Assembly: GCF_024345185.1 (NCBI RefSeq)
Contig: NZ_BROB01000026.1
Coordinates: forward strand, 1-36,017
Length of the DNA stretch: 36,017 nucleotides
Direction: 5' to 3'
From: Levilactobacillus humaensis
Lineage (GTDB): Bacteria; Bacillota; Bacilli; Lactobacillales; Lactobacillaceae
Below the pieces are notes generated by a model. That model was not told the DNA's origin. It made no database searches and saw only the letters and a list, made by a program, of their open reading frames with translations. The translations under genes and the position numbers were made by a program. Each line of letters begins with the position of its first letter. Position 1 is the first letter of the stretch. Positions 8,189 through 28,692 of this stretch are shown piece after piece.

Positions 8189-8894
8189 ATGATCCGGTAT
8201 CCTCTTCTGGGTTCTTGGCACGCCATTCGGCTTCAGCTTGCGTCAATCGTAGGTAGTTCGGCACGAATTGATCCACGTCTTTTACGGGCGTCTCGTGACG
8301 ACCCAACAGGCCAATCGTTGCCGCCTGTGGTAAGTTCATCCAGGCACTCACGTTCGGCGTTGCGGCCGAAATGGTGGTGTCAATGAGCTCAGTAAAGTGG
8401 CTAGCGTCACCTAAGAACCAGACGGGCTCACCATACTCGTTAATGGCTTCTAAATAAGTCGTGACGTTCGTGTGTGCATCCGCAATCTCGGACACGGGGA
8501 CGCCCCCCTTGATCCGGTACAGTCCAGCGAAAACGTTCTGGTTCCGCGCATCGAACAAAGGTGCCACCAGGGCGCCCTCAACCGGCACGTTCGCCGCCAA
8601 GGTTGCCAGACTAGAGACGGCCACTAACTCGATATCGAGTGTTGCGGCCAGCGTCTTTGCCGTTGTCACGGCAATTCTAATCCCCGTGTAGGAACCCGGA
8701 CCCGCAGCCACAACGACCCGGTCGAGATCGGTTGGCTTAAGTTCGGCCATGGCGAGAAGCCGTTCAATTTCCGGTAATAAATACTCAGCGTGCTTCTGGT
8801 GAACGGTCACCGTGATGGCGGCCAGCACGTTCGAGTCATCCAACACAGCCACACTCAGTGGTCGGTTAGACGTATCAATTGCTAAAATCTTCAT
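8172..8894 (-). CDS. tsaB: tRNA threonylcarbamoyladenosine biosynthesis protein TsaB
   Basis: TsaB is the catalytically inactive TsaD paralogue that scaffolds the t6A synthesis complex. The 240-residue product opens MKILAIDTSNRPLSVAVLDD, contains the heterodimer-forming segment GPGSYTGIRIAVTTAKTLA near residues 65-83, and lacks the HxxxH metal site of TsaD, as expected. The start ATG has AAAGGGGA about 12 nt upstream. It heads the group tsaB-rimI-tsaD-glycosylase. A terminator-like hairpin lies about 70 nt upstream of the start, so the leader may be attenuated or transcription may begin after it. Confidence 0.95.
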   Translation of the reverse strand: MKILAIDTSNRPLSVAVLDDSNVLAAITVTVHQKHAEYLLPEIERLLAMAELKPTDLDRVVVAAGPGSYTGIRIAVTTAKTLAATLDIELVAVSSLATLAANVPVEGALVAPLFDARNQNVFAGLYRIKGGVPVSEIADAHTNVTTYLEAINEYGEPVWFLGDASHFTELIDTTISAATPNVSAWMNLPQAATIGLLGRHETPVKDVDQFVPNYLRLTQAEAEWRAKNPEEDTGSYVEKI

Positions 8895-16497: not shown

Positions 16498-16511
16498 TGA
16501 ATTAGCTCATA

Positions 16512-16606
16512 AACTTGAAGCACAAAGCGGCGCAAACTTAGTGCTGCTTCCTTCCGGACCTGACACAATTCGTAAGGTCACCCTTGCTCCAAGGCCTTTA
16601 CGGCAA
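16512..16606 (-). ncRNA. ffs: Signal recognition particle RNA (small bacterial type)
   Basis: On the minus strand the invariant apical motif GTCAGGTCCGGAAGGAAGCA (about 16563-16544) is present; it forms the Ffh-binding tetraloop hairpin with the asymmetric loop. Flanking arms pair CTTGGAGCA with TGCTTCAAG, closing a rod of about 95 nt. An intrinsic terminator follows. Location between tadA and dnaX matches scr of Bacillus, but no Alu domain is visible, so this is the short form. The exact ends are estimated from the closing stem. Confidence 0.93.
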
Positions 16607-18229: not shown

Positions 18230-18338
18230 TTTAAGTTAGACACAAACCCGTCTCGGCGACGTCGTGTTTGTTCACGGTGGCGCCATTTTTATTTGGTTTT
18301 ATGATGATCCAGTTTGAATGAAGGAAGAGATGATTAGG

Positions 18339-20504
18339 ATGAGCTTAAAAGACTTAGGTAATGTGACTTACTATGATTTAAACAATGAAATTAACATCCC
18401 CGTCGACGGACAGATCCCACTTAACAAGGATCAGGAAGCCCTCCACGCCTTCCTAAAGGAAAATGTCGGCCCCAACACCAAGCGTTTCGATTCCTTGCGC
18501 GACCGATTCGACTTCTTAATCAACAATAACTACATCGAGGCCAAGGTGATTAACCAGTACCCCTTCGAATTCGTCGAAGACCTCTACGCCTACCTCAAAG
18601 ATCAAGACTTTCATTTCAAGTCTTTCATGGCTGCCTACAAATTCTACGCCCAGTATGCCTTGAAGACCGACGACAACGACTACTACCTGGAAAACTTCAT
18701 CGATCGCGTGGCCATGAACGCCCTGGACTTCGCCGAGGGTGACCAACAGTTAGCCCATGACCTAGCCGATGAAATCATCCATCAGCGTTACCAACCCGCT
18801 ACGCCTAGCTTCCTTAGCGCGGGCCGGTCTCGTCGGGGGGAACTCGTCTCTTGTTTCTTAATCCAATCGACCGATGATATGAACACGATCGGCCGGACAA
18901 TTAACTCTGCCCTGCAACTCTCACGTATCGGTGGTGGGGTCGGGATCAGCCTGTCCAACCTGCGGGGCGCGGGCGATCCGATCAAACACATCGATGGTGC
19001 GGCCTCCGGGGTCGTTCCGGTCATGAAGTTACTTGAAGACAGCTTCTCTTATTCCAACCAATTGGGTCAACGTCAAGGGGCCGGAGTGGTCTACCTGAGC
19101 GTCTTCCATCCCGACATCGTGGCCTTCCTGAGTGCTAAGAAGGAAAATGCCGACGAAAAGATTCGGTTGAAGACCCTCTCACTCGGCGTCACCGTTCCCG
19201 ATAAGTTCTATGAACTCTGTGAACAAGATGCCGACATGTACCTCTTCAGTCCTTACGACGTTGAACGCATCTACGGCAAGCCATTTGCCTACGTCGACAT
19301 CACCACCGAATACGACAACATGGTGGCCAATCCCGACATTCGTAAGAAGAAACTGAAGGCCCGTGAGCTGGAAACCGAAATTGGCAAGCTCCAACAGGAA
19401 TCCGGCTACCCTTACATCGTCAACATTGACACGGCCAACCGGGAAAGTCCCATCGACGGCCGGATCGTCATGAGCAATCTTTGTTCCGAAATCATGCAGG
19501 TTCAGACGCCTTCACGCGTCAACAACAAGCAAGAGTACGACGTGCTGGGAACCGACATCTCTTGTAACCTCGGGTCCACCAACATCGTCAACCTGATGAC
19601 CTCCCCTGACTTCGGCCACTCCGTCGAAACCATGGTCCGCGCCCTCACCTTCGTGACCGACCACTCCGACATCGATGTCGTGCCTTCTATCCAAAAGGGA
19701 AACCGACTCGGCCATACCATTGGTTTAGGTGCCATGGGTCTGCACAGCTACTTTGCCAAGAACCAAATGATGTACGGGTCTAAGGACAGTATTGCCTTTA
19801 CCAGCGTGTACTTCATGCTGCTGAACTACTGGACGTTGAAGGCTTCAAATGAAATCGCTAAGGAACGGCACGAAACGTTCCACAATTTCGACAAGAGCAC
19901 TTACGCCGATGGCACCTACTTCGACCGCTACACCGAAAAAGACTGGCGACCAACCTCGGCCAAGGTTCAAAAACTCTTTGCCGACGTCTGGTTACCTTCA
20001 CCTGAAGACTGGGCCGAACTGAAGACCGCCGTCATGCAAGATGGTCTCTACCATCAGAACCGCATGGCCGTTGCGCCTAACGGGTCCATCTCCTACATCA
20101 ACGACACCACGGCCAGCCTCCATCCGATTATCAACCGGATCGAAGAACGCCAAGAAAAGAAGATTGGAAAGATCTACTACCCAGCCCCATACCTCAGCAA
20201 TGACACCATGCCTTACTACAAGTCGGCCTACGATACCGACATGCGTCGGGTTATCGACGTTTACGCCGCCGCGCAGAAGCATGTCGACCAAGGGATGAGC
20301 CTAACGCTCTTCATGCGTTCTACCCTGCCTGAAGGCCTCTACGAATGGAAGAATGGTCGGACGGATAAGATGACCACGCGGGACCTGAGTATTCTGCGGA
20401 ACTACGCCCACCGTAAGGGGATCAAGTCGATCTACTACGTGCGGACCTTCACCGATGACAATAGTGAAGTCGGCGCTAACCAATGTGAAAGCTGTGTTAT
20501 CTAG
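18339..20504 (+). CDS. nrdE: Class Ib ribonucleotide reductase alpha subunit NrdE
   Basis: NrdE reduces ribonucleoside diphosphates to deoxyribonucleotides. The 721-residue product carries SCFLIQSTDDMNTIG (active-site cysteine), the substrate loop SRIGGGVGISLSNLRGAG, MSNLCSEIMQV and the C-terminal redox pair in QCESCVI that passes electrons from NrdH. It lacks the ATP-cone of class Ia, as expected for Ib. I choose ATG 18339-18341 (MSLKDLGNVTYYDL), with AAGGAAGAG 9 nt upstream; earlier in-frame ATGs at 18318 and 18330 have no suitable site. NrdF lies 508 bp downstream, an unusually large gap filled by two hairpin elements. Confidence 0.97.
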   Translation: MSLKDLGNVTYYDLNNEINIPVDGQIPLNKDQEALHAFLKENVGPNTKRFDSLRDRFDFLINNNYIEAKVINQYPFEFVEDLYAYLKDQDFHFKSFMAAYKFYAQYALKTDDNDYYLENFIDRVAMNALDFAEGDQQLAHDLADEIIHQRYQPATPSFLSAGRSRRGELVSCFLIQSTDDMNTIGRTINSALQLSRIGGGVGISLSNLRGAGDPIKHIDGAASGVVPVMKLLEDSFSYSNQLGQRQGAGVVYLSVFHPDIVAFLSAKKENADEKIRLKTLSLGVTVPDKFYELCEQDADMYLFSPYDVERIYGKPFAYVDITTEYDNMVANPDIRKKKLKARELETEIGKLQQESGYPYIVNIDTANRESPIDGRIVMSNLCSEIMQVQTPSRVNNKQEYDVLGTDISCNLGSTNIVNLMTSPDFGHSVETMVRALTFVTDHSDIDVVPSIQKGNRLGHTIGLGAMGLHSYFAKNQMMYGSKDSIAFTSVYFMLLNYWTLKASNEIAKERHETFHNFDKSTYADGTYFDRYTEKDWRPTSAKVQKLFADVWLPSPEDWAELKTAVMQDGLYHQNRMAVAPNGSISYINDTTASLHPIINRIEERQEKKIGKIYYPAPYLSNDTMPYYKSAYDTDMRRVIDVYAAAQKHVDQGMSLTLFMRSTLPEGLYEWKNGRTDKMTTRDLSILRNYAHRKGIKSIYYVRTFTDDNSEVGANQCESCVI

Positions 20505-20526
20505 CAGCACGTCCCACGCCTTACCG

Positions 20527-20673
20527 GCCGGCAGATATGAGCTGGAACGGTGCGGGCACAACTTTAAGCCTCGAAAAAACCGAGTCTTAAAGCTTGGCCT
20601 TCTGCTAAGTCGGCCAAGAACGCCGACCAAGCAGAACGACGCGCCTGAGCTCATATCTGCCAGCCTCTCGGCT
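20527..20673 (+). repeat. Hairpin-cluster repeat, copy 1
   Basis: The closing stem pairs 20530-20543 with 20648-20661, a perfect 14 bp. Inside are a hairpin 20562-20573/20581-20592 (AAGCCTCG against CGAGTCTT with one C/T mismatch) and a hairpin 20600-20614/20622-20636 (TTCTGCT and GTCGGC arms). Read on the minus strand the outer end begins AGCCGAGAGGCTGGCAGATA, which matches the equivalent end of copies 2 and 3. It starts 22 nt after the nrdE stop. Confidence 0.75.
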
Positions 20674-20726
20674 TACATTGATGTTAAACATCGACTGTTG
20701 TAGTTATTAACAGCCAAGTTTCAAAC

Positions 20727-20755
20727 TTGAGTCATTACGAATTGAAAACTTACAA
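20727..20755 (+). promoter_or_regulatory. Possible nrdF promoter between the two repeats
   Basis: TTGAGT (20727-20732) and TTACAA (20750-20755) are 17 bp apart. Just upstream is a perfect palindrome CAAGTTT-C-AAACTTG (20715-20729) that could be an operator. A transcript from here would carry repeat copy 2 in the nrdF leader. Confidence 0.35.
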
Positions 20756-20782
20756 CGTTTTATCATAACAGACATCAACCTA

Positions 20783-20962
20783 AGCCGGAGGCGGACAGAA
20801 ATGTAGCCAGCCGTGAAAATAGTGGTAGCTGGCCATTTGGCTAGCTACCACTATGGGCGACTTGGAAGACACGTGTTTTTCGTGGCTTCCAAGCGAGCGA
20901 GAAGACTGGTGGTTTGCCAGTCTGAAGCGTCCCCCACAGCAGGCGGAATTTCTGGCCGCCGG
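20783..20962 (-). repeat. Hairpin-cluster repeat, copy 2 (inverted)
   Basis: On the plus strand the outer end is AGCCGGAGGCGGACAGAAAT (20783-20802); CAGAAAT pairs with ATTTCTG at 20948-20954. Three internal hairpins follow: 20819-20834/20839-20854 (15 of 16 paired), 20861-20873/20881-20893 (AAGCCACG/CGTGTCTT on the minus strand, one C/T mismatch) and 20903-20909/20917-20923. Linkers CTTCTCGCTCG and TCGCCC, read on the minus strand, are identical to those of copy 3. It ends about 50 nt before nrdF. Confidence 0.8.
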
Positions 20963-21012
20963 AGTGCGAACAAGTTAACGAAAGCTAATCTCTAAATCAA
21001 AGGAGTGGTAGC

Positions 21013-22008
21013 ATGGCAAGAATTGAAAACTATAACGCAATTAACTGGAACGCGGTTTCAGACGAAATCGACAAGGCAACTTGGGAAAAATTAACGGAAC
21101 AATTTTGGCTCGACACCCGGATTCCGGTCTCCAATGACCTGGATGACTGGCGGACACTGGATACCGACCACCAATGGGTCGTAGGTCACGTTTTCGGGGG
21201 TCTAACGCTATTAGACACCCTGCAGTCCCAAGACGGAATGGCTGCCCTGAGAAGAGACGTCCGGACGCCTCACGAGACCGCCGTCTTAAACAATATTCAA
21301 TTCATGGAATCCGTTCATGCGAAGAGTTACTCCACGATTTTCTCCACGTTGAACACGCCGGACGAAATCGACGAAATCTTCCAATGGAGTGATTCCGAAG
21401 AATTCCTACAAAACAAGACCAAGCGAATCTATGATCTGTACCACGATGACGAGCATCCCCTGAAAAAGAAGATCTCCAGCGTCTTTCTGGAAACATTCTT
21501 GTTCTACTCTGGATTCTTTACCCCGCTCTACTACTTAGGCCACAACAAATTGCCTAACGTGGCGGAAATCATCAAGCTAATCTTGCGAGACGAATCCGTC
21601 CACGGAACGTACATCGGTTACAAATTCCAGCTCGGCATGAAGGAACTTACCGACAATGAGCAACAACAAATGAAGGATTGGATGTACGACTTCCTTTACA
21701 AGTTGTATGCTAACGAGGAAAAGTACACGCACCTGATGTACGATCAAGTCGGCTGGACGGAACAAGTTCTCACCTTCATCCGCTACAACGCTAACAAGGC
21801 CCTGATGAACTTGGGCCAAGATCCCCTCTTCCCTGACACGGCCGAGGATGTGAACCCGATCGTCATGAACGGGATTTCCACCTCCACCGCTAACCATGAC
21901 TTCTTCTCCCAAGTGGGGAATGGTTATCTGTTAGGTAATGTGGAAGCCATGAACGACAGTGACTACAACATTGGGGAACCCGACGATCCAGAGGATCCTC
22001 GCAAATAA
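21013..22008 (+). CDS. nrdF: Class Ib ribonucleotide reductase beta subunit NrdF
   Basis: NrdF houses the dimetal-tyrosyl radical used by NrdE. The family's ligands and radical tyrosine are recognisable: D68 (LLDTLQ), E99 and H102 (FMESVHAKSY), Y106, and later the EIIKLILRDESVHGTY segment with Glu and His ligands. The 331 residues are normal. AAAGGAG precedes the ATG. Class Ib enzymes usually need the flavoprotein NrdI to assemble the Mn cofactor; no nrdI is in this window, so it must lie elsewhere if present. Confidence 0.97.
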   Translation: MARIENYNAINWNAVSDEIDKATWEKLTEQFWLDTRIPVSNDLDDWRTLDTDHQWVVGHVFGGLTLLDTLQSQDGMAALRRDVRTPHETAVLNNIQFMESVHAKSYSTIFSTLNTPDEIDEIFQWSDSEEFLQNKTKRIYDLYHDDEHPLKKKISSVFLETFLFYSGFFTPLYYLGHNKLPNVAEIIKLILRDESVHGTYIGYKFQLGMKELTDNEQQQMKDWMYDFLYKLYANEEKYTHLMYDQVGWTEQVLTFIRYNANKALMNLGQDPLFPDTAEDVNPIVMNGISTSTANHDFFSQVGNGYLLGNVEAMNDSDYNIGEPDDPEDPRK

Positions 22009-22027
22009 TCTTTCATAAAAAGAAAAG

Positions 22028-22081
22028 ACAGGCACTCATCGCAACCAACCCAACAGTTGATTGCCGTGAATGCCTGTTTTT
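22028..22081. terminator. Terminator of nrdF, possibly bidirectional
   Basis: ACAGGCA (22028-22034) pairs with TGCCTGT (22071-22077), with an inner GCAACCAAC/GTTGATTGC stem, and five T follow on the plus strand. The minus-strand side is also U-rich (CTTTTCTTTTT). Confidence 0.8.
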
Positions 22082-22098
22082 CGCATACGAATTTTGGC

Positions 22099-22134
22099 AA
22101 AAGAAGAGAGGTCATGCCGGCGGCACAACCTCTC
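22099..22134 (-). terminator. Terminator of the rhamnosidase/transporter operon
   Basis: On the minus strand GAGAGGT (22134-22128) pairs with ACCTCTC (22112-22106), with a TGCC/GGCA inner stem, followed by TTCTTTT. It starts 15 nt after the stop of the MFS gene. Confidence 0.75.
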
Positions 22135-22149
22135 AACATTTCTGATATC

Positions 22150-23439
22150 TTATTCCGTGACTTGCTTCTGATCGGCTTCCAGCGTCGTATCCGTGATGTG
22201 GTGACGCTTGATGTAGCGTACAACGGTAATGGCACTGAATCCAAAGACCACCGTACAACCCACCATAATCCACAACAACAGACTAGCAGAGACACCCATC
22301 AGAGTCGGGGTTGCCAGGGCAAAGATCGCCGTGACCACCCGCACGAAGCCGTATGAGAACCCGGTCATCGTGGCCCGCATGTTAACGGGATACAGGGTTT
22401 GACTCCAAATCTTGTAGAGCGCTTCCCCACAGAGCACCGTACTTCCGGAATAGAAGACGTAGACCACCGTGAAGACTTGCCACTGACTACTGAAGAGACC
22501 GGCAACCACGAAGGATACCAGGGCCACCGCAATCCCCACATACATAGCGGGGTAACGGTATTTCGAGTCAGAAATTTTCAGATAAATCACATTAATCAAC
22601 AAACAGAACAGGTTAGCCACTAGCGCGGTCCCCGTGGAGAACATCTGACTCCGGCCATCGACCGTCACCAGGAAGTAGTTCACGAATGACCCCCAGGTGT
22701 TGGCTGGCAGGTTCCAGAACAGGTAGAACACCGTGAGTAAGATGAAGGGAACCAACGCCCCACTCGTCTTCAAGAAGGTCCCTAGTTTGACCTTCTTTTC
22801 CGGTGCCTCATCCCCCTCATCCGACTGAACGGATGAGGCCAGGTTGGCTTCAATGTCCTTGAACTTACCGGAGAAGACCCGCACGGACCAATTTAACAGG
22901 GCCACTAAGGCGATCCAACCGAACAGCGCCATGATACTGCCCATCCCCGAGTTCGCGGTAATAAACCCGATAAACTGAGACAGGAGAATCCCGATCGTCC
23001 AGAAGATCTGGGTGGCGGAAATGGCCCGCCCGTAGGTTTGCTTGTTCATTCGTTCGGAAACCACGGCCAATGATGTTGGCAGGTCGGCCCCGGAGGCTAG
23101 CCCCGCGATGAAGACCCCAACAACCAGCAATGGCAGATTACCCGCAAACGCCACGATCGCCGATCCCACGAAGACAAAGAAGATGTCGACGTTGAAGACC
23201 GTGACCCGGCCAAATTTATCAGATAACCAGCCACCGGCAAAGGACCCAATGGCCACCGCCACCGTCAGCATGGTACTCAGGAACCCGATCGTCCAACTGT
23301 TCAATCCCAGGTACTTGGCCCAGATAGGCAAGGCAACCCCCAGGCTGACCAGTAAGGCGGCATCCAGGTAGGACGCAACCCCCGCGATAAAAATCAGGAG
23401 CTTACTATCTCTACTGAGCGTCACTTTCTCGTTTGGCAT
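22150..23439 (-). CDS. MFS transporter, downstream copy of the rhamnosidase operon
   Basis: The 429 residues form about 12 hydrophobic membrane segments. MFS signatures include GGWLSDKFGRVTVF in the loop between segments 2 and 3, ASGADLPTSLAVVSE and CGEALYKIWSQTLYPVNMRA. It is clearly paralogous to the transporter at 25060-26337, sharing the SGADLP, STQIFW and GEA-YK-W-Q motifs. The ATG (23437-23439) lies inside the last codons of the rhamnosidase gene, overlapping by 29 nt, with GGGAGG 8 nt upstream, so translation is coupled. A rhamnoside or rhamnose substrate is inferred from context only. Confidence 0.85.
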   Translation of the reverse strand: MPNEKVTLSRDSKLLIFIAGVASYLDAALLVSLGVALPIWAKYLGLNSWTIGFLSTMLTVAVAIGSFAGGWLSDKFGRVTVFNVDIFFVFVGSAIVAFAGNLPLLVVGVFIAGLASGADLPTSLAVVSERMNKQTYGRAISATQIFWTIGILLSQFIGFITANSGMGSIMALFGWIALVALLNWSVRVFSGKFKDIEANLASSVQSDEGDEAPEKKVKLGTFLKTSGALVPFILLTVFYLFWNLPANTWGSFVNYFLVTVDGRSQMFSTGTALVANLFCLLINVIYLKISDSKYRYPAMYVGIAVALVSFVVAGLFSSQWQVFTVVYVFYSGSTVLCGEALYKIWSQTLYPVNMRATMTGFSYGFVRVVTAIFALATPTLMGVSASLLLWIMVGCTVVFGFSAITVVRYIKRHHITDTTLEADQKQVTE

Positions 23440-25030
23440 TCTTCAGGCCTCCCTTAATAAGATACTTCTGAATCAAGTAGACCGGCGTACAACTCCAGGC
23501 ATGACAGTAGCTGTTGAGCAGTGGACTGCCATACGGTGAGTAATCTTGCTGGTTTGGATCGTAGGCTTCCCAGTAGGTGTCAGCGCCCAACGTAATCATG
23601 CCACCCCAGTAATGCTTCATGAGGGCGATAGCGTCATCCGTTAAACCGGCTTCGAACAAGGCTTCCGTAATGTGGTGATACATGTATGGCGTCGCAATTC
23701 CCGTGACTGGGAAGAGCTGGGCCACCGTCTTTTGCATGATGGCTTTACTCGTGGCATCATCCATGACGTGAGCCAACACCATCCAAGCTTGACTGGCAAT
23801 GTTGACCTCACGCTGAGGCCCCGAAACGAAGAGTCCTTGGTCAGCATCAAACAACTGGCTCTGCGCGAAGTTAAGTAACTGATCTAACGCGGCTTGGTAA
23901 CGGTCAACCTGATCATCCTGGGCTTGGTGAGCCAACTGAATGAATTGCCGTAGGGCGTAAATCATCACAGCTTGTCCAGCGGTCGTCTTATCGAAATCAT
24001 TGGACCAGTCGACGAAGACCGGATAGTCATCGGACAATTGAAGTTGTCCTTGGTCATCAACCTTTGCTAAGGCGACGTCCATTTGCTTCTTGGCAACGGG
24101 GTACAGATCCGTTAATAGCTGATCGTCCTCGTCATAATTTTCATAATCACTGAGAATTGAAATGAAGAACAGGCTGTAGTCGAAGAGGAACGTGTCATCT
24201 GGCACATCCTTGGGCTGTGTGAAGACGTTAGCCACCACGCGACCATCGTCGGCGGGCATAGCCCCGAACAGATACAGGCAACGCTTGATAATATCGGTAT
24301 TGCCAAATGTGGCGTAGTCCGCTAGGGCCTGTAACCGCAAGTCCCCAATCCATAACCGGCGATCCCGCTTGGGACCGTCTTCGAAGACCTCTTGCATACA
24401 GTCTTCCAGGGTCTTTAAACCCACCTGATAGATCCGCTTTAACATTGGATCGGCCAGTTCGGGAACCGTCACCTGACGCGCATCCACTGAGGACTGCGTG
24501 ATCACTTGCGGCTGATCGAAGACGACTTGCCACTTGGGTGAGGTATCGAGCACGGTGATTTCGACGTACCGGAAACTGTAGCGCCGTGGTAAGTCGATCG
24601 TAGCTGGTAATTGGTCCAAGTGAATGGTTTCCTCTTGAATCCAAGATTTGCTGAGCCAACCATCATAGTCGGCACTGTTGTAGCTCAATTCCACTGGCAT
24701 TTCGGCAAAACGAATCCGACAGAACAGCGGCGCATCCATGGGTGACCCCGTGGCCGTTGCCTTGATACTGAACTTGCCGACGCAGTGTTCCCCGAAATCA
24801 AGGATGACCCGGCCGTCACGCTTCAACGGCTGATTAACCAGATCCGAAACCTCGGCAACCTTCTTCACACCGTACCCACCTAACAATTTAGGCTGGTGGT
24901 CCAACGCGACGAGAGCCGTCGGTGTGACGACGTGGTGCTTGAGGGTTGGCTTGAACCCTTGCGACTTGGCCAGCAAGACCTCGTCGTGTTTGAATTTAAC
25001 TTCATCGTTTACTTGAAATGTAAAAGCCAT
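23411..25030 (-). CDS. Alpha-L-rhamnosidase-like glycoside hydrolase (GH78 type)
   Basis: The 539-residue protein resembles GH78 alpha-L-rhamnosidases of lactobacilli, which release rhamnose from plant glycosides. The N-terminal half is a beta-rich region. The catalytic (alpha/alpha)6 barrel contains EVFEDGPKRDRRLWIGDLRLQA (about 216-237) with the acidic residues typical of the family, YWEAYDP and the terminal LNSYCHAWSCTPVYLIQKYL. There is no signal peptide, so it acts in the cytoplasm on imported glycosides. It lies between two paralogous MFS genes, 29 nt after the first, and overlaps the second. Activity on rhamnose is inferred from family and context. Confidence 0.85.
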   Translation of the reverse strand: MAFTFQVNDEVKFKHDEVLLAKSQGFKPTLKHHVVTPTALVALDHQPKLLGGYGVKKVAEVSDLVNQPLKRDGRVILDFGEHCVGKFSIKATATGSPMDAPLFCRIRFAEMPVELSYNSADYDGWLSKSWIQEETIHLDQLPATIDLPRRYSFRYVEITVLDTSPKWQVVFDQPQVITQSSVDARQVTVPELADPMLKRIYQVGLKTLEDCMQEVFEDGPKRDRRLWIGDLRLQALADYATFGNTDIIKRCLYLFGAMPADDGRVVANVFTQPKDVPDDTFLFDYSLFFISILSDYENYDEDDQLLTDLYPVAKKQMDVALAKVDDQGQLQLSDDYPVFVDWSNDFDKTTAGQAVMIYALRQFIQLAHQAQDDQVDRYQAALDQLLNFAQSQLFDADQGLFVSGPQREVNIASQAWMVLAHVMDDATSKAIMQKTVAQLFPVTGIATPYMYHHITEALFEAGLTDDAIALMKHYWGGMITLGADTYWEAYDPNQQDYSPYGSPLLNSYCHAWSCTPVYLIQKYLIKGGLKNAKRESDAQ

Positions 25031-25059
25031 TTTGTCACTCTCTTTCTAGCAAGTTCTCT

Positions 25060-26337
25060 TTAGAAGTCGTGAACGTTGTGCTTTCTCTGAAGACGCATCA
25101 TGGTTAACCCGGAAATGAAACTGATTAAGATAATTCCGGCGAATCCAAACATGGTGTACTTGATCATGCCTGGAACCACTAAGGCTGGCGTCACAATGGC
25201 AAACAGCCCACATAACATCCGTGAGAATCCGTTGATAAACCCTTGAACACCGGCACGAACTTCGACTGGGAAGGATTCTTGCGTCCAAACTTTGTACATC
25301 GCTTCACCGGCGATACTGTTCCCGATGTTGTACAACCCAATGGCGATAACGATTGGCCATAAGGCGTGACTACTCAAGGCTAAACCAAGCATTGCGGCGA
25401 ATTGAACAATGGCCCCAACGATAAAGAACTTGTTCCGGTACTTGCCCCCAGAAACGGAAGCAAAGGCCATGGTGGAGAATAAGGAGATAAAGTTTAAGAT
25501 AACCCCGGCACCAGTGGCGAAACTTTGACTAGCATTGGCTTGAACCAGCGTGAACGTTTGGAATTGACCAAAGGTGTTGGCTAATAAGTTCCAGCAAATG
25601 TAGAAGATGAAGATTCCGAAGAAGAAGCCCATGTACTTGCCACGGTTTGACCCAGCAAAGACAGACTTGATAGAAACTTTTTCGGTAACGTTGGCTTCCT
25701 TTTCGTGTTCGAGTCGACGCTGTTCCCCTTGTTCGTGAAACGTCTTGAACTTGCTAGAGAATGTCCGCCATGCCCAAGTAATGAGAGCAAATGCTGCTAA
25801 TAATGAAAAGACAAGGCGTGCACCCGTAGCACCGGCCATCCGTGAAACCACGAAGGCCCCAACGTAGGAACTGAAGACCCCGATTTGCCAGAAGATTTGC
25901 GTCGATGAAACTAATTCATTCGACGTCTTCTCGTTTGGCGAGTCGTGAGAAATAACGGTTAAACTAATTGGTAAGTCGGCCCCGGAAGCAAATCCGGTCA
26001 CGATAACCCCAATGAGTAACATTGGAAAGCCTGTGGCGGCCACACAAATCAATGCTCCTAAAGCGTAGAACAAGTTAAGGGAGTTAAATGATCGAATCAA
26101 CCCGAAGGCCTTCGTAATCTGCCCGGCTAATAAAGAACCAAAAGCAATCGCGAACGTTAACGCCCCAGAGATAAACCCAACTTGGGCATTGGTCAGATTC
26201 AACCCGGCTTGCCAAACGGTAATCGTGGCTGACAATCCAACAATAATTCCTGAACCTAAAATGGATCCGATCCCAGCTGCAATCGCAAGTGGTCTATATT
26301 TACTGAACTCGGATTTTTGAACTTCACCATTATTCAT
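25060..26337 (-). CDS. MFS transporter, upstream copy of the rhamnosidase operon
   Basis: The 425 residues give about 12 membrane segments. Family motifs are GFASGADLPISLTVISHD, STQIFWQIGVFSSY and AGEAMYKVWTQESFPVEVRAGVQGF, shared with the paralogue at 22150-23439. A charged cytoplasmic loop (FHEQGEQRRLEHEKEA) joins the two halves. GGAGG precedes the ATG. It is first in the operon, under a promoter with an overlapping cre site, and divergent from the AraC-type regulator. The likely role is uptake of a glycoside or rhamnose. Confidence 0.85.
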   Translation of the reverse strand: MNNGEVQKSEFSKYRPLAIAAGIGSILGSGIIVGLSATITVWQAGLNLTNAQVGFISGALTFAIAFGSLLAGQITKAFGLIRSFNSLNLFYALGALICVAATGFPMLLIGVIVTGFASGADLPISLTVISHDSPNEKTSNELVSSTQIFWQIGVFSSYVGAFVVSRMAGATGARLVFSLLAAFALITWAWRTFSSKFKTFHEQGEQRRLEHEKEANVTEKVSIKSVFAGSNRGKYMGFFFGIFIFYICWNLLANTFGQFQTFTLVQANASQSFATGAGVILNFISLFSTMAFASVSGGKYRNKFFIVGAIVQFAAMLGLALSSHALWPIVIAIGLYNIGNSIAGEAMYKVWTQESFPVEVRAGVQGFINGFSRMLCGLFAIVTPALVVPGMIKYTMFGFAGIILISFISGLTMMRLQRKHNVHDF

Positions 26338-26367
26338 ATTGATGAACCTCCTTCTGTTTATGCCTTA

Positions 26368-26396
26368 ATTGTAAGCGCTTAAATTAATGACAACAA
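26368..26396 (-). promoter_or_regulatory. Rhamnosidase operon promoter overlapped by a cre site
   Basis: On the minus strand TTGTTG (26391-26396) and TACAAT (26368-26373) are 17 bp apart. TGTAAGCGCTTAAA (26370-26383, plus strand) fits the cre consensus TGWAANCGNTNWCA at all but one position and covers the -10 box. CcpA binding here would repress the operon when a preferred sugar is present. Confidence 0.8.
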
Positions 26397-26418
26397 TATC
26401 CCCAGCACAGCTCCTTGA

Positions 26419-26448
26419 TTGCAAAATCACAGGTAAAAATTGTATAAT
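26419..26448 (+). promoter_or_regulatory. Promoter of the AraC-type regulator gene
   Basis: TTGCAA (26419-26424) and TATAAT (26443-26448) lie 18 bp apart, 34 nt before the ATG. The two divergent promoters leave only about 20 bp between their -35 boxes, so one bound regulator could influence both. Confidence 0.7.
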
Positions 26449-26482
26449 TTAATAAATTGGTTTACTTAAAGGAGGGCGCGTT

Positions 26483-27523
26483 ATGGCATCACGAATCTTA
26501 AGTCAACTACTCTTTCGCCTGAACCGGGTGGAACGTTACCAAAAGAAAACAGGTCAAAATTTCAATTACGACAACTTGGATTTTATTCATCACCCGATCC
26601 CGCGAATGCCCCAATTCGAGTTCTTTCAGGAGTCTAATATCGCGATTACCAAGAACAATCGTTTCTCCTACACCCCGGCCCACACGCATGATTTCATTGA
26701 ATTTAACTACATGTACTCCGGCTCCTGTATCCAGTACATCAACGACGAACCCATCAAGCTCCGGCAGCATCAACTCCTGGTCATGGACCGCGACGTGGTC
26801 CAGCGCATCGACTATGCTGGTCAGAAGGATATCATCATTAACATCCTCCTCAGAGATACCGACGACTTCGCCGAATCCGCCGGTTACCTGAAGAACTCTG
26901 CGGACACCGTTTCCCAGTTCCTGTACAATGCCGCCAAACGAGATTCCCCCCATAACAACTTCATCATCTTCGATCTCAGTAAGAATGAGGTCGCCACGAA
27001 GCTTTTGGAGAGTCTCGCTATCAAGGGTCTCGAAGACACGGCCAATCGTAATGAACTCCTGCGACTCATTTTTGCGGCCCTCATGGTGGAGCTACCGGGA
27101 ACGATTCGACGCCGTAGTATCAGCTACACCAACCCCGCCAATGATGAATTCCTGCCAATTCTGCGCGCCATCAGTGCGGAATACCAGACGGTGTCGCTCA
27201 GTGAGCTTGCCACCCGTTTCGGCTACAATACCAACTACCTCGGCGACAAGATCCGTGAAATGACCGGTAAGAGTTTCAAGGAACTCATCGACCGCCGCCG
27301 ATTAGCTGCCGCGCAAAACCTGATGATTCGGACGAGCTGTAGTGCCGCTGAGATTTGCGATATCATTGGGTACAAAAACAACTCCTCACTCTTCCGCCTT
27401 TTCAAAAAGTACCTAGATATCACCCCCTCGGCCTACAAGGCTAAGGTGAGTCACCAACGCCTGATTACCCAGCCCCTCTTGCCCGAGGTTCGCGGTCACG
27501 CCAGTCGCACGCCACAGAACTAA
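26483..27523 (+). CDS. AraC-family transcriptional regulator
   Basis: The 346-residue protein has an N-terminal cupin-like sensing domain (PAHTHDFIEFNYMYSGSCIQYI, about 62-83) and a C-terminal AraC/XylS double helix-turn-helix (about 240-325: LSELATRFGYNTNYLGDKIREMTGKSF and CDIIGYKNNSSLFRLFKKYLDITPSAYK). GGAGGG precedes the ATG. Position and divergence make it the likely activator of the rhamnosidase/transporter operon, with rhamnose or a glycoside as the probable inducer; that is inference. Confidence 0.9.
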   Translation: MASRILSQLLFRLNRVERYQKKTGQNFNYDNLDFIHHPIPRMPQFEFFQESNIAITKNNRFSYTPAHTHDFIEFNYMYSGSCIQYINDEPIKLRQHQLLVMDRDVVQRIDYAGQKDIIINILLRDTDDFAESAGYLKNSADTVSQFLYNAAKRDSPHNNFIIFDLSKNEVATKLLESLAIKGLEDTANRNELLRLIFAALMVELPGTIRRRSISYTNPANDEFLPILRAISAEYQTVSLSELATRFGYNTNYLGDKIREMTGKSFKELIDRRRLAAAQNLMIRTSCSAAEICDIIGYKNNSSLFRLFKKYLDITPSAYKAKVSHQRLITQPLLPEVRGHASRTPQN

Positions 27524-27633
27524 ATTATCTCTTGTCACCCCGACTCGGTTGGCGTACTATCGACTAAACAGCACCTAAATTGGGTCGCTTAACAATCACG
27601 GTGCATGACACTGAAGTGACTACGCGATTGTTT

Positions 27634-27639
27634 TATAAT
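27634..27639 (+). promoter_or_regulatory. -10 box of the LOG gene
   Basis: TATAAT lies 35 nt before the ATG; the -35 region is weak (CTGAAG, 17 bp upstream). AACAATC (27591-27597) and GATTGTT (27626-27632) are inverted copies around a 28-nt loop, possibly a weak terminator of the araC-type gene just ahead of the promoter. Confidence 0.5.
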
Positions 27640-27673
27640 GATGTCGACTACCAATAGATGAGGGGATCAGATT

Positions 27674-28252
27674 ATGCCAAAAATTAAAAATGTTTGTGTT
27701 TTCTGCGGATCAAATCATGGGTTCGACCCTGCCTTTCTGGACCAAACCAACGCCCTAGGCCAGTACTTAGCCAGCCATGACCACCCCGTGGTTTACGGTG
27801 GCGGTAAAGAAGGACTGATGGGCGCCATTGCCAAGTCCACCATGGATGCCGGTGGCGAAGTTATCGGCATCATTCCCACCTTTCTGAGCGAGATGGGACT
27901 GGCCGAAACGCATATCACCACCCTGCTGGAAACGGCCACGATGGACGAACGTAAGGACGAAATGCTCCGGCAGTCCGACGCCTTTATCGTGTTGCCTGGG
28001 GGCTTTGGCACCTTCGAGGAGTTCACCACGATGCTCTCCTGGAGCCAAATCAACGTTCACCAGAAGCCAATCGCCCTCTTCAACATCAACCACTACTACG
28101 ATGAACTCGTGGCCATGATGGTGAAGTGTTGTGACGCCGGATTTGCGCCGAAAGAGAACCTGGATCTATTTATTAACGCCAGTTCCATCGATGGGATCTT
28201 CGATGGCTTTGCGAACTTCCATCACCAATTGCCTTACAAATACACGAACTAA
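27674..28252 (+). CDS. LOG-family (cytokinin riboside monophosphate phosphoribohydrolase-like) protein
   Basis: The 192 residues show the Rossmann-like LOG fold: VCVFCGSNHGF near the start, VVYGGGKEGLMGAIA (39-53), MDERKDEM with E92-R93-K94, and the signature PGGFGTFEE (108-116). The family hydrolyses N6-substituted or plain nucleoside 5'-monophosphates, releasing the base. Its physiological role in bacteria is uncertain, so I do not assign cytokinin synthesis. It is monocistronic, with a promoter at about 27634 and a strong terminator just after the stop. Confidence 0.92.
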   Translation: MPKIKNVCVFCGSNHGFDPAFLDQTNALGQYLASHDHPVVYGGGKEGLMGAIAKSTMDAGGEVIGIIPTFLSEMGLAETHITTLLETATMDERKDEMLRQSDAFIVLPGGFGTFEEFTTMLSWSQINVHQKPIALFNINHYYDELVAMMVKCCDAGFAPKENLDLFINASSIDGIFDGFANFHHQLPYKYTN

Positions 28253-28259
28253 GTCACTT

Positions 28260-28288
28260 GGAGTCCTTGATTGGACTCCTTTTTTATT
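28260..28288 (+). terminator. Terminator of the LOG gene
   Basis: GGAGTCC (28260-28266) pairs with GGACTCC (28273-28279) around a 6-nt loop and is followed by six T. Confidence 0.9.
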
Positions 28289-28307
28289 GCTTCATATAGT
28301 TTGGAAG

Positions 28308-28494
28308 GCCGCCTGCGGCTGCCAGGGATTACGCCTGCTGTGGGGACGCTTCAGCCTGAGACCCGGGCTTCTCGCTCGATTTGAAGCCCCGCCAGGGACG
28401 CGGGTCTTCAAATTCGCCCGTGATGTAAGGCCGAGAAAAACACTCGGTCTAACATCACCGCCACGGCCGACTCCATCCCTGACCTCCTCCGGCT
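28308..28494 (+). repeat. Hairpin-cluster repeat, copy 3
   Basis: The outer stem pairs CAGGGAT (28323-28329) with ATCCCTG (28475-28481); the minus strand end reads AGCCGGAGGAGGTCAGGGAT. Inside are hairpins 28379-28391/28401-28413 (AAGCCCCG/CGGGTCTT with the same C/T mismatch as the other copies) and 28420-28435/28443-28458. Linkers CTTCTCGCTCG and TCGCCC and the segment GCCTGCTGTGGGGACGCTTC match copy 2. The remaining 28495-28692 shows nothing I can name. Confidence 0.8.
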
Positions 28495-28692
28495 ATGATC
28501 CGCTCTTAAAAGGGTCACTGGCTGGCCTGACCAACTAAATTAGTGAGTAAAATCTGTTATGACGCACGACCTTAGTAAACTTTTTATGAGAGTTTTTGAC
28601 CATTCACCCGGCTTGATTTGAAAAGAGTTCAGCAAAAGTCAATTCTGGATTTACAAGTGTTAAGAGCATTTTCAAACGAAAATGACTGTACC

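Follow-up and report, generated by a model that had tools for sequence, protein, structure and literature searches.

Between nrdE and nrdF, and again some 7 kb further on, a 36,017-nucleotide stretch of the Levilactobacillus humaensis genome (contig NZ_BROB01000026.1, hereafter the window) carries clusters of hairpins, which raise the question of whether they represent an undescribed structured RNA or a palindromic mobile repeat. Our analysis indicates that they are probably modules of small non-autonomous elements of Levilactobacillus, of the type of miniature inverted-repeat transposable elements (MITEs), whose hairpins would act as RNA. The original prediction described a family of three alike copies; their shared layout can be read directly in the sequence, as can the middle hairpin AAGCC-N-CG / CG-N'-GTCTT with its variable pair (T/A, A/T, C/G) and the paired changes in the upper stem and in the outer CAG..CTG stem. 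Using a covariance model (R1, from 59 type-B rows), we found all three units in the window, at 20507-20677 on the minus strand (59 bits), 20779-20979 on the plus strand (180 bits) and 28298-28498 on the minus strand (207 bits), which located the predicted copies and showed the units to be slightly wider than first given; two extra R1 matches (28 and 25 bits) are these units on the opposite strand. The three are not all alike, since copy 1 belongs to another subtype (type A) and, together with copy 2 (type B), forms a single composite in the nrdE-nrdF gap, in which modules A and B face outward from a spacer. Copy 3 is a solo B module, its partner missing in the window. Nor does the family stop at three members: R1 gave 139 matches at E <= 0.001 in the 2.37-Mb window genome (150 of 634 candidates scored), a few antisense shadows being among them.

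The complete element was recognised in related species. In L. koreensis, L. hammesii, L. tujiorum and genome G016, homology between composites extends past both modules and ends in inverted repeats (18 loci aligned of 40 chosen for holding a pair). The full L. koreensis element is 608-624 bp long and consists of an inverted-repeat end, an arm, module A, a spacer of about 110 bp, module B, a second arm and an inverted-repeat end, the arms measuring 63-68 bp and both modules turning their inner ends toward the spacer. Its 14-base terminal inverted repeat (TIR), CTAAAGGTTGAAAG, occurs in 23 of the 35 genus genomes and 72 times in L. koreensis, against zero for the reversed-pattern control in the genomes listed, and with two mismatches allowed the counts were 134 versus 16. 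Among the matches listed for L. koreensis at least 28 motif pairs could be matched by hand (nine of 608-624 bp, 18 of 250-577 bp and one of 1,559 bp), and 20 of the 28, namely 19 short ones and the 1,559-bp one, were fetched. The short elements measure 363-624 bp, have no transposase gene and bear the TIR at both ends with 0-2 mismatches, as short MITEs do; an exact target duplication of 7-9 bp was found at 14 of the 19, and both modules are near full length in 10, the rest having damaged or missing modules. The 1,559-bp element (L347) shares these ends and has a duplication of 8 bp; its frame of 489 codons scores 469.9 bits against the IS4-family model NF049925 (cut-off 250). Because of the inverted-repeat ends, the target duplications and the IS4-family insertion sequence (IS) with the same ends, spread of the family in the form of a MITE with IS4-type ends is well supported in L. 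koreensis, and with it the mobile repeat of the original prediction as far as the family is concerned. Among 30 TIR loci from 23 genomes, a module lies just inside the motif at 15.

Two observations concern the same ends outside L. koreensis. In the window genome, a 224-bp element lies between two exact TIR motifs without a module match (G000 C17:27923-28146, L326) and represents a second MITE family ending in these repeats. In the draft genomes G023, G002 and G018, TIR motifs were seen about 40-130 bp from contig ends (e.g. L318, L325, L346); these assemblies may be broken at longer identical copies, probably those of the insertion sequence.

Several findings weigh against this account. No TIR was detected there with up to two mismatches allowed, nor do the window copies have a target duplication; they were assigned to the family via their modules and not via their ends, and lack the terminal repeats of MITEs. 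NF049925 exceeded its cut-off in only six of the 35 genus genomes, including L. koreensis, L. paucivorans and L. lindianensis, and had no match in the window genome. In L. koreensis itself, five of the 19 elements are without an exact target duplication and the 1,559-bp IS4-family element contains no module, so that the module-bearing interior was not derived from that IS. Composites of genome G198 (genus g21) spread as wholes without the CTAAAGGTTGAAAG TIR, and a vehicle with IS4-type ends is thus not the only one; two kinds were seen there, of about 650 and 770 bp and 82-92% alike (L371-L379), in which homology ends near the outer module ends and no TIR or target duplication was seen. The module pair may hence be older than its present vehicle. 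Furthermore, paralogue homology in the window genome ends at single-module borders. A single module as the transposing unit is countered by the whole TIR-ended elements of L. koreensis, which show that the composite moves; the sharp ends are in our view due to old copies exchanging with one another.

Taken with these points, the window copies are, as judged from their sequence, worn remnants without ends. An IS4-family transposase would move the element in trans; in the window genome the ends have worn off, and old A-spacer-B pairs and solo modules are left in place. Modules are lost through deletion, often with one copy left of a short repeat present at both module ends, and resident modules are replaced by other copies. 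The modules may be well kept because their folded form acts at the nucleic-acid level. This would most likely happen as RNA, in transcripts running beyond gene ends, which the modules might stabilise, process or insulate, and such action could make insertions tolerable.

Within the genus, R1 matched 34 of 35 genomes. Order-wide, stricter filters gave matches in 8 of 246 genomes including the window genome, all of one bacterial family and from 5 of 65 genera. In stretches of the window genome chosen around matches (631,546 bases), 144 non-overlapping units occupy 103 intergenic regions as delimited by a crude gene caller. The lone plasmid match of copies 1 and 2 was weak, a module-A-like fragment just after the S8 peptidase gene of L. 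brevis plasmid p5 (L230:4001-4113), and none was found for copy 3 in plasmids or in phages, the latter comparison covering copy 3 alone. No description of the repeat in Levilactobacillus was met in the literature searched, a partial search with most subscription journals outside its coverage.

Pairing is the rule wherever units share an intergenic region. In the window genome, 39 of 40 multi-unit regions are outward-pointing pairs with the inner ends facing each other, the fortieth being an outward pair plus a tandem duplicate, and the pair spacers measure 26-329 bp with one case of 839 bp. The same arrangement was found in other genera at all nine two-unit loci (20 loci fetched). Since pairs also stand between tandem and divergent genes, we rejected the idea that they arise as a side effect where two gene ends meet, and the spacer was rejected as cargo or open reading frame, the spacers of seven window-genome pairs not aligning mutually. 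In the fortieth region, which holds three units (G000 C10:48260-48946), units 2 and 3 were seen in perfect tandem duplication, 100% over the 749 bp compared.

Both module types share one architecture. Type B combines a long outer stem with inner hairpins and fixed linkers, and the plan of type A is the same minus one hairpin; RNAalifold predicted 49 pairs in B and 56 in A. Covariation was assessed on 59 of 89 B and 28 of 30 A sequences, in alignments that were not fitted to the fold. Changes on both sides occur at 32 of the 49 B pairs and 31 of the 56 A pairs, with 323 both-side-changed cells in B versus 87 +- 10 in shuffles and 175 in A versus 40 +- 7. None of 500 shuffles, which keep relatedness, was as high as observed on any of five covariation measures in either type, and the signal was gone in both once the partners were slid by 1-3 columns. 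Three mismatches hold the same places in both types: A.G (58/59 B rows, 28/28 A rows), U.U (53/59 and 28/28) and C.A (48/59 and 22/28). The first of these, read from the inner end, is the conserved C/T mismatch of the original prediction, which appears as C.T on the other strand. In module B of the window, the outer stem (20796..20954, plus strand; helix 2 of the B alignment) can be read in the sequence as CAGAAAT (20796-20802) pairing with ATTTCTG (20948-20954), and the middle hairpin (20861..20893, plus strand; helix 7) pairs CTTGGAAG (20861-20868) with CTTCCAAG (20886-20893), the A.G mismatch sitting above it. Thus the modules share a well-supported conserved fold beyond chance, with relatedness and copy exchange only partly removed. 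Rfam 15 gave no family above its gathering score for the copies, relaxed searches returning only weak matches far under the gathering scores. As to an undescribed structured RNA, the fold is borne out by covariation, fixed mismatches and linkers and the lack of an Rfam match, while an expressed or working RNA is not supported.

What keeps the modules alike was addressed by comparison with sister species. Orthologous units of the window genome and L. paucivorans (40 units) or L. lindianensis (20 units) are 92-93% identical, versus 70-73% for the inner 120 bp and 88-89% for the outer, partly coding 120 bp of the same loci (all medians). Such conservation, in a genome without transposase or intact ends, is what would be expected if the modules were domesticated host elements acting in cis at gene ends, where they would stabilise or process mRNA, terminate transcription or shield against antisense read-through, with mobility only as their origin. 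Moreover, by the crude gene caller the outer end is often near a gene 3' end, unit-bearing regions with both neighbours are more often convergent than are gaps of at least 50 bp in the same stretches (32 of 95 versus 71 of 355), and the nrdE-nrdF composite is retained in L. koreensis, L. andaensis and, diverged, in L. tujiorum. Turnover, however, is quick: 19 window-genome units are present, 15 absent and 3 partial in L. lindianensis, and 39 present, 4 absent and 7 partial in L. paucivorans, the counts of presence being inflated, as the relatives' stretches were fetched around their own units. Several absent alleles of L. lindianensis keep one terminal repeat where filled alleles have two (e.g. 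C10:55730, C13:16435, C10:71709, C2:12239), as expected from deletion between repeats, and others are ragged. The empty sites that the original prediction suggested looking for were found as differences in presence between sister species, but none was clean between nrdE and nrdF among L. paucivorans, L. lindianensis and L. huananensis; the first holds a remnant of B and the other two an unrelated short spacer, so that a target duplication is unreadable there. In addition, exchange between paralogues can hold copies alike without a host function, and where units lack a close paralogue, the single changes within their pairs (G.U 20, A.C 15, other 19) give no sign of fold-guided filtering. Domestication in this strict sense therefore seems rather doubtful to us.

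Copy exchange as a cause of module conservation is a live alternative. A closer paralogue exists for 25 of the 61 orthologous units, and double Watson-Crick changes number 79 in 2,709 pairs of 47 units versus 2 in 775 pairs of the 14 units without a close paralogue. From this concentration, together with the closer paralogues, it follows that exchange is under way and accounts for some of the recent covariation; the selection on structure claimed at the outset thus stands as regards covariation above chance and has to be reduced by the share due to copy replacement. It would go further to derive conservation and covariation solely from exchange (gene conversion, re-insertion) and template switching in inverted repeats, with a functionless fold, as the placing of 79 of the 81 double changes and the sharp module borders of paralogue homology might suggest. 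Template correction would, however, erase mismatches, yet the same three are fixed in both types, and the core linkers are still recognisable in another genus. Furthermore, the arms and spacer of L. koreensis are equally repeated, yet modules A and B are about 2.5 times less variable: the mean pairwise difference among 11 of the 19 elements is 5.0% in A and 6.6% in B, against 15.3% and 15.5% in the arms and 15.9% in the spacer, each TIR differing by 1.3%. Exchange as the sole cause is accordingly unlikely. The fixed mismatches and linkers, and the survival of the modules without ends or transposase, incline us toward a possible role of the fold as RNA at gene ends.

Each module might instead be a small RNA gene, as both are read outward from the spacer and a short conserved leader stands ahead of the 5' end. 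When the pairs predicted on both strands are counted, outward reading gives more G.U than A.C (82:45 cells in B, 45:7 in A). An apparently clear strand bias was, however, weakened by the counts over all predicted pairs, which are near equal in cells (124:121 in B, 70:58 in A), although by pair positions G.U still leads (30 to 13 in B, 24 to 8 in A), and by the fixed C.A, which would be a wobble on the other strand. Since no position is conserved beyond about 25 nt before the module in 54 window-genome B units and no promoter was seen by eye upstream of it, we regard such genes as very unlikely. Repeats of the REP/BIME type moved by a Y1 (RAYT) transposase, to which high-copy intergenic palindromes in inverted pairs might point, are hardly credible: the Y1 enzyme was rejected as mover on the distribution of Y1_Tnp (PF01797), which was found in 23 of the 35 genus genomes, is absent from L. 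paucivorans and is interrupted by a stop codon in its single window-genome copy, and the units are about 190 nt long with several hairpins, in intact elements with TIRs and target duplications.

Known bacterial MITEs (Correia, QMITE, ERIC; PMC10969869; for Correia also PMC2649163) resemble the family in being short, gene-less and intergenic, with TIRs, target duplications and stable predicted folds, and QMITE2 has direct repeats of 7-9 bp according to a figure legend (PMC10969869). They are moved in trans by an IS, as may be the case here. The elements differ from those described there in their two homologous multi-hairpin modules, which have fixed mismatches and linkers and are more conserved than arms and spacer, and their full length of 608-624 bp exceeds the typical <500 bp; the main text of that article mentions neither lactobacilli nor IS4. 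In the Bacillus cereus group, the bcr repeats (PMC3446304, PMC6542083) are likewise high-copy and intergenic, bcr1-bcr3 being described as MITE-like and often parts of untranslated regions and bcr10 and bcr18 being reported to have conserved secondary structures. Unlike here, their mobility is tied to the motif TTTAT and to a mechanism that may be site-specific, and the passages available to us mention no outward module pair or common IS4-type ends. REP, BIME and REPIN sequences (PMC2817692, PMC3733652, PMC3116915) share the high copy number, the intergenic palindromes and the alternating orientation, but REP units are 20-40 bp (PMC3733652), against about 190 nt here, and an association with a Y1 transposase was not found for our family. 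BOX elements of Streptococcus pneumoniae are modular. Compared by description, BOX and RUP (PMC3049150) are also small interspersed repeats of a Gram-positive chromosome.

The MITE reading accounts for more than 100 folded intergenic repeats in one Levilactobacillus genome, where one composite splits the ribonucleotide reductase operon, and the comparison told apart two look-alike sources of covariation: a mobile family whose copies exchange, and a fold under selection. Should the modules indeed work as RNA, a transposon without genes but with a pair of conserved RNA structures aboard would be a passenger of a new kind, and a practical system in which to study why folded cores persist in bacterial MITEs. 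More tentatively, and with considerable doubt, the modules could make up a novel class of structured nucleic-acid module, present in five genera of a single bacterial family. Such modules would be carried as outward pairs on small mobile elements with differing ends, would be required for these elements to spread or for their insertion to be tolerated, and would outlast the ends and the transposase as RNA elements at gene ends.

In the window, the composite lies downstream of nrdE (18318..20504, plus strand; PF02867, PF08343, PF00317). The outer end of module A (20507..20677, minus strand) is 3 nt beyond the nrdE stop and its inner 5' end is at the right; the A profile matches 20518-20676 inside this unit. 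The spacer between the two R1 matches, from the inner end of A to that of B, covers 101 bp (20678..20778), and nrdF (21013..22008, plus strand; PF00268) starts 34 bp past the outer end of module B (20779..20979, plus strand). Copy 3 (28298..28498, minus strand) has a LOG (lysine-decarboxylase-like) gene on one side and an LPG-synthase-like gene on the other, and its orthologous site in genome G001 holds paired units, at 8250-8426 (minus) and 8670-8849 (plus) of locus L262. Just ahead of copy 3, a simple terminator, hairpin plus T run, was seen by eye at about 28263-28288. The outer flanks of window-genome B modules are A-rich at about 10-25 nt from the outer end; in several examples this stretch reads as a T run belonging to the terminator of the adjacent gene, as if the modules stood just past terminators. 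The only Rfam match at gathering level in the window is the bacterial small signal recognition particle RNA at 16509-16595 on the minus strand (53.2 bits).

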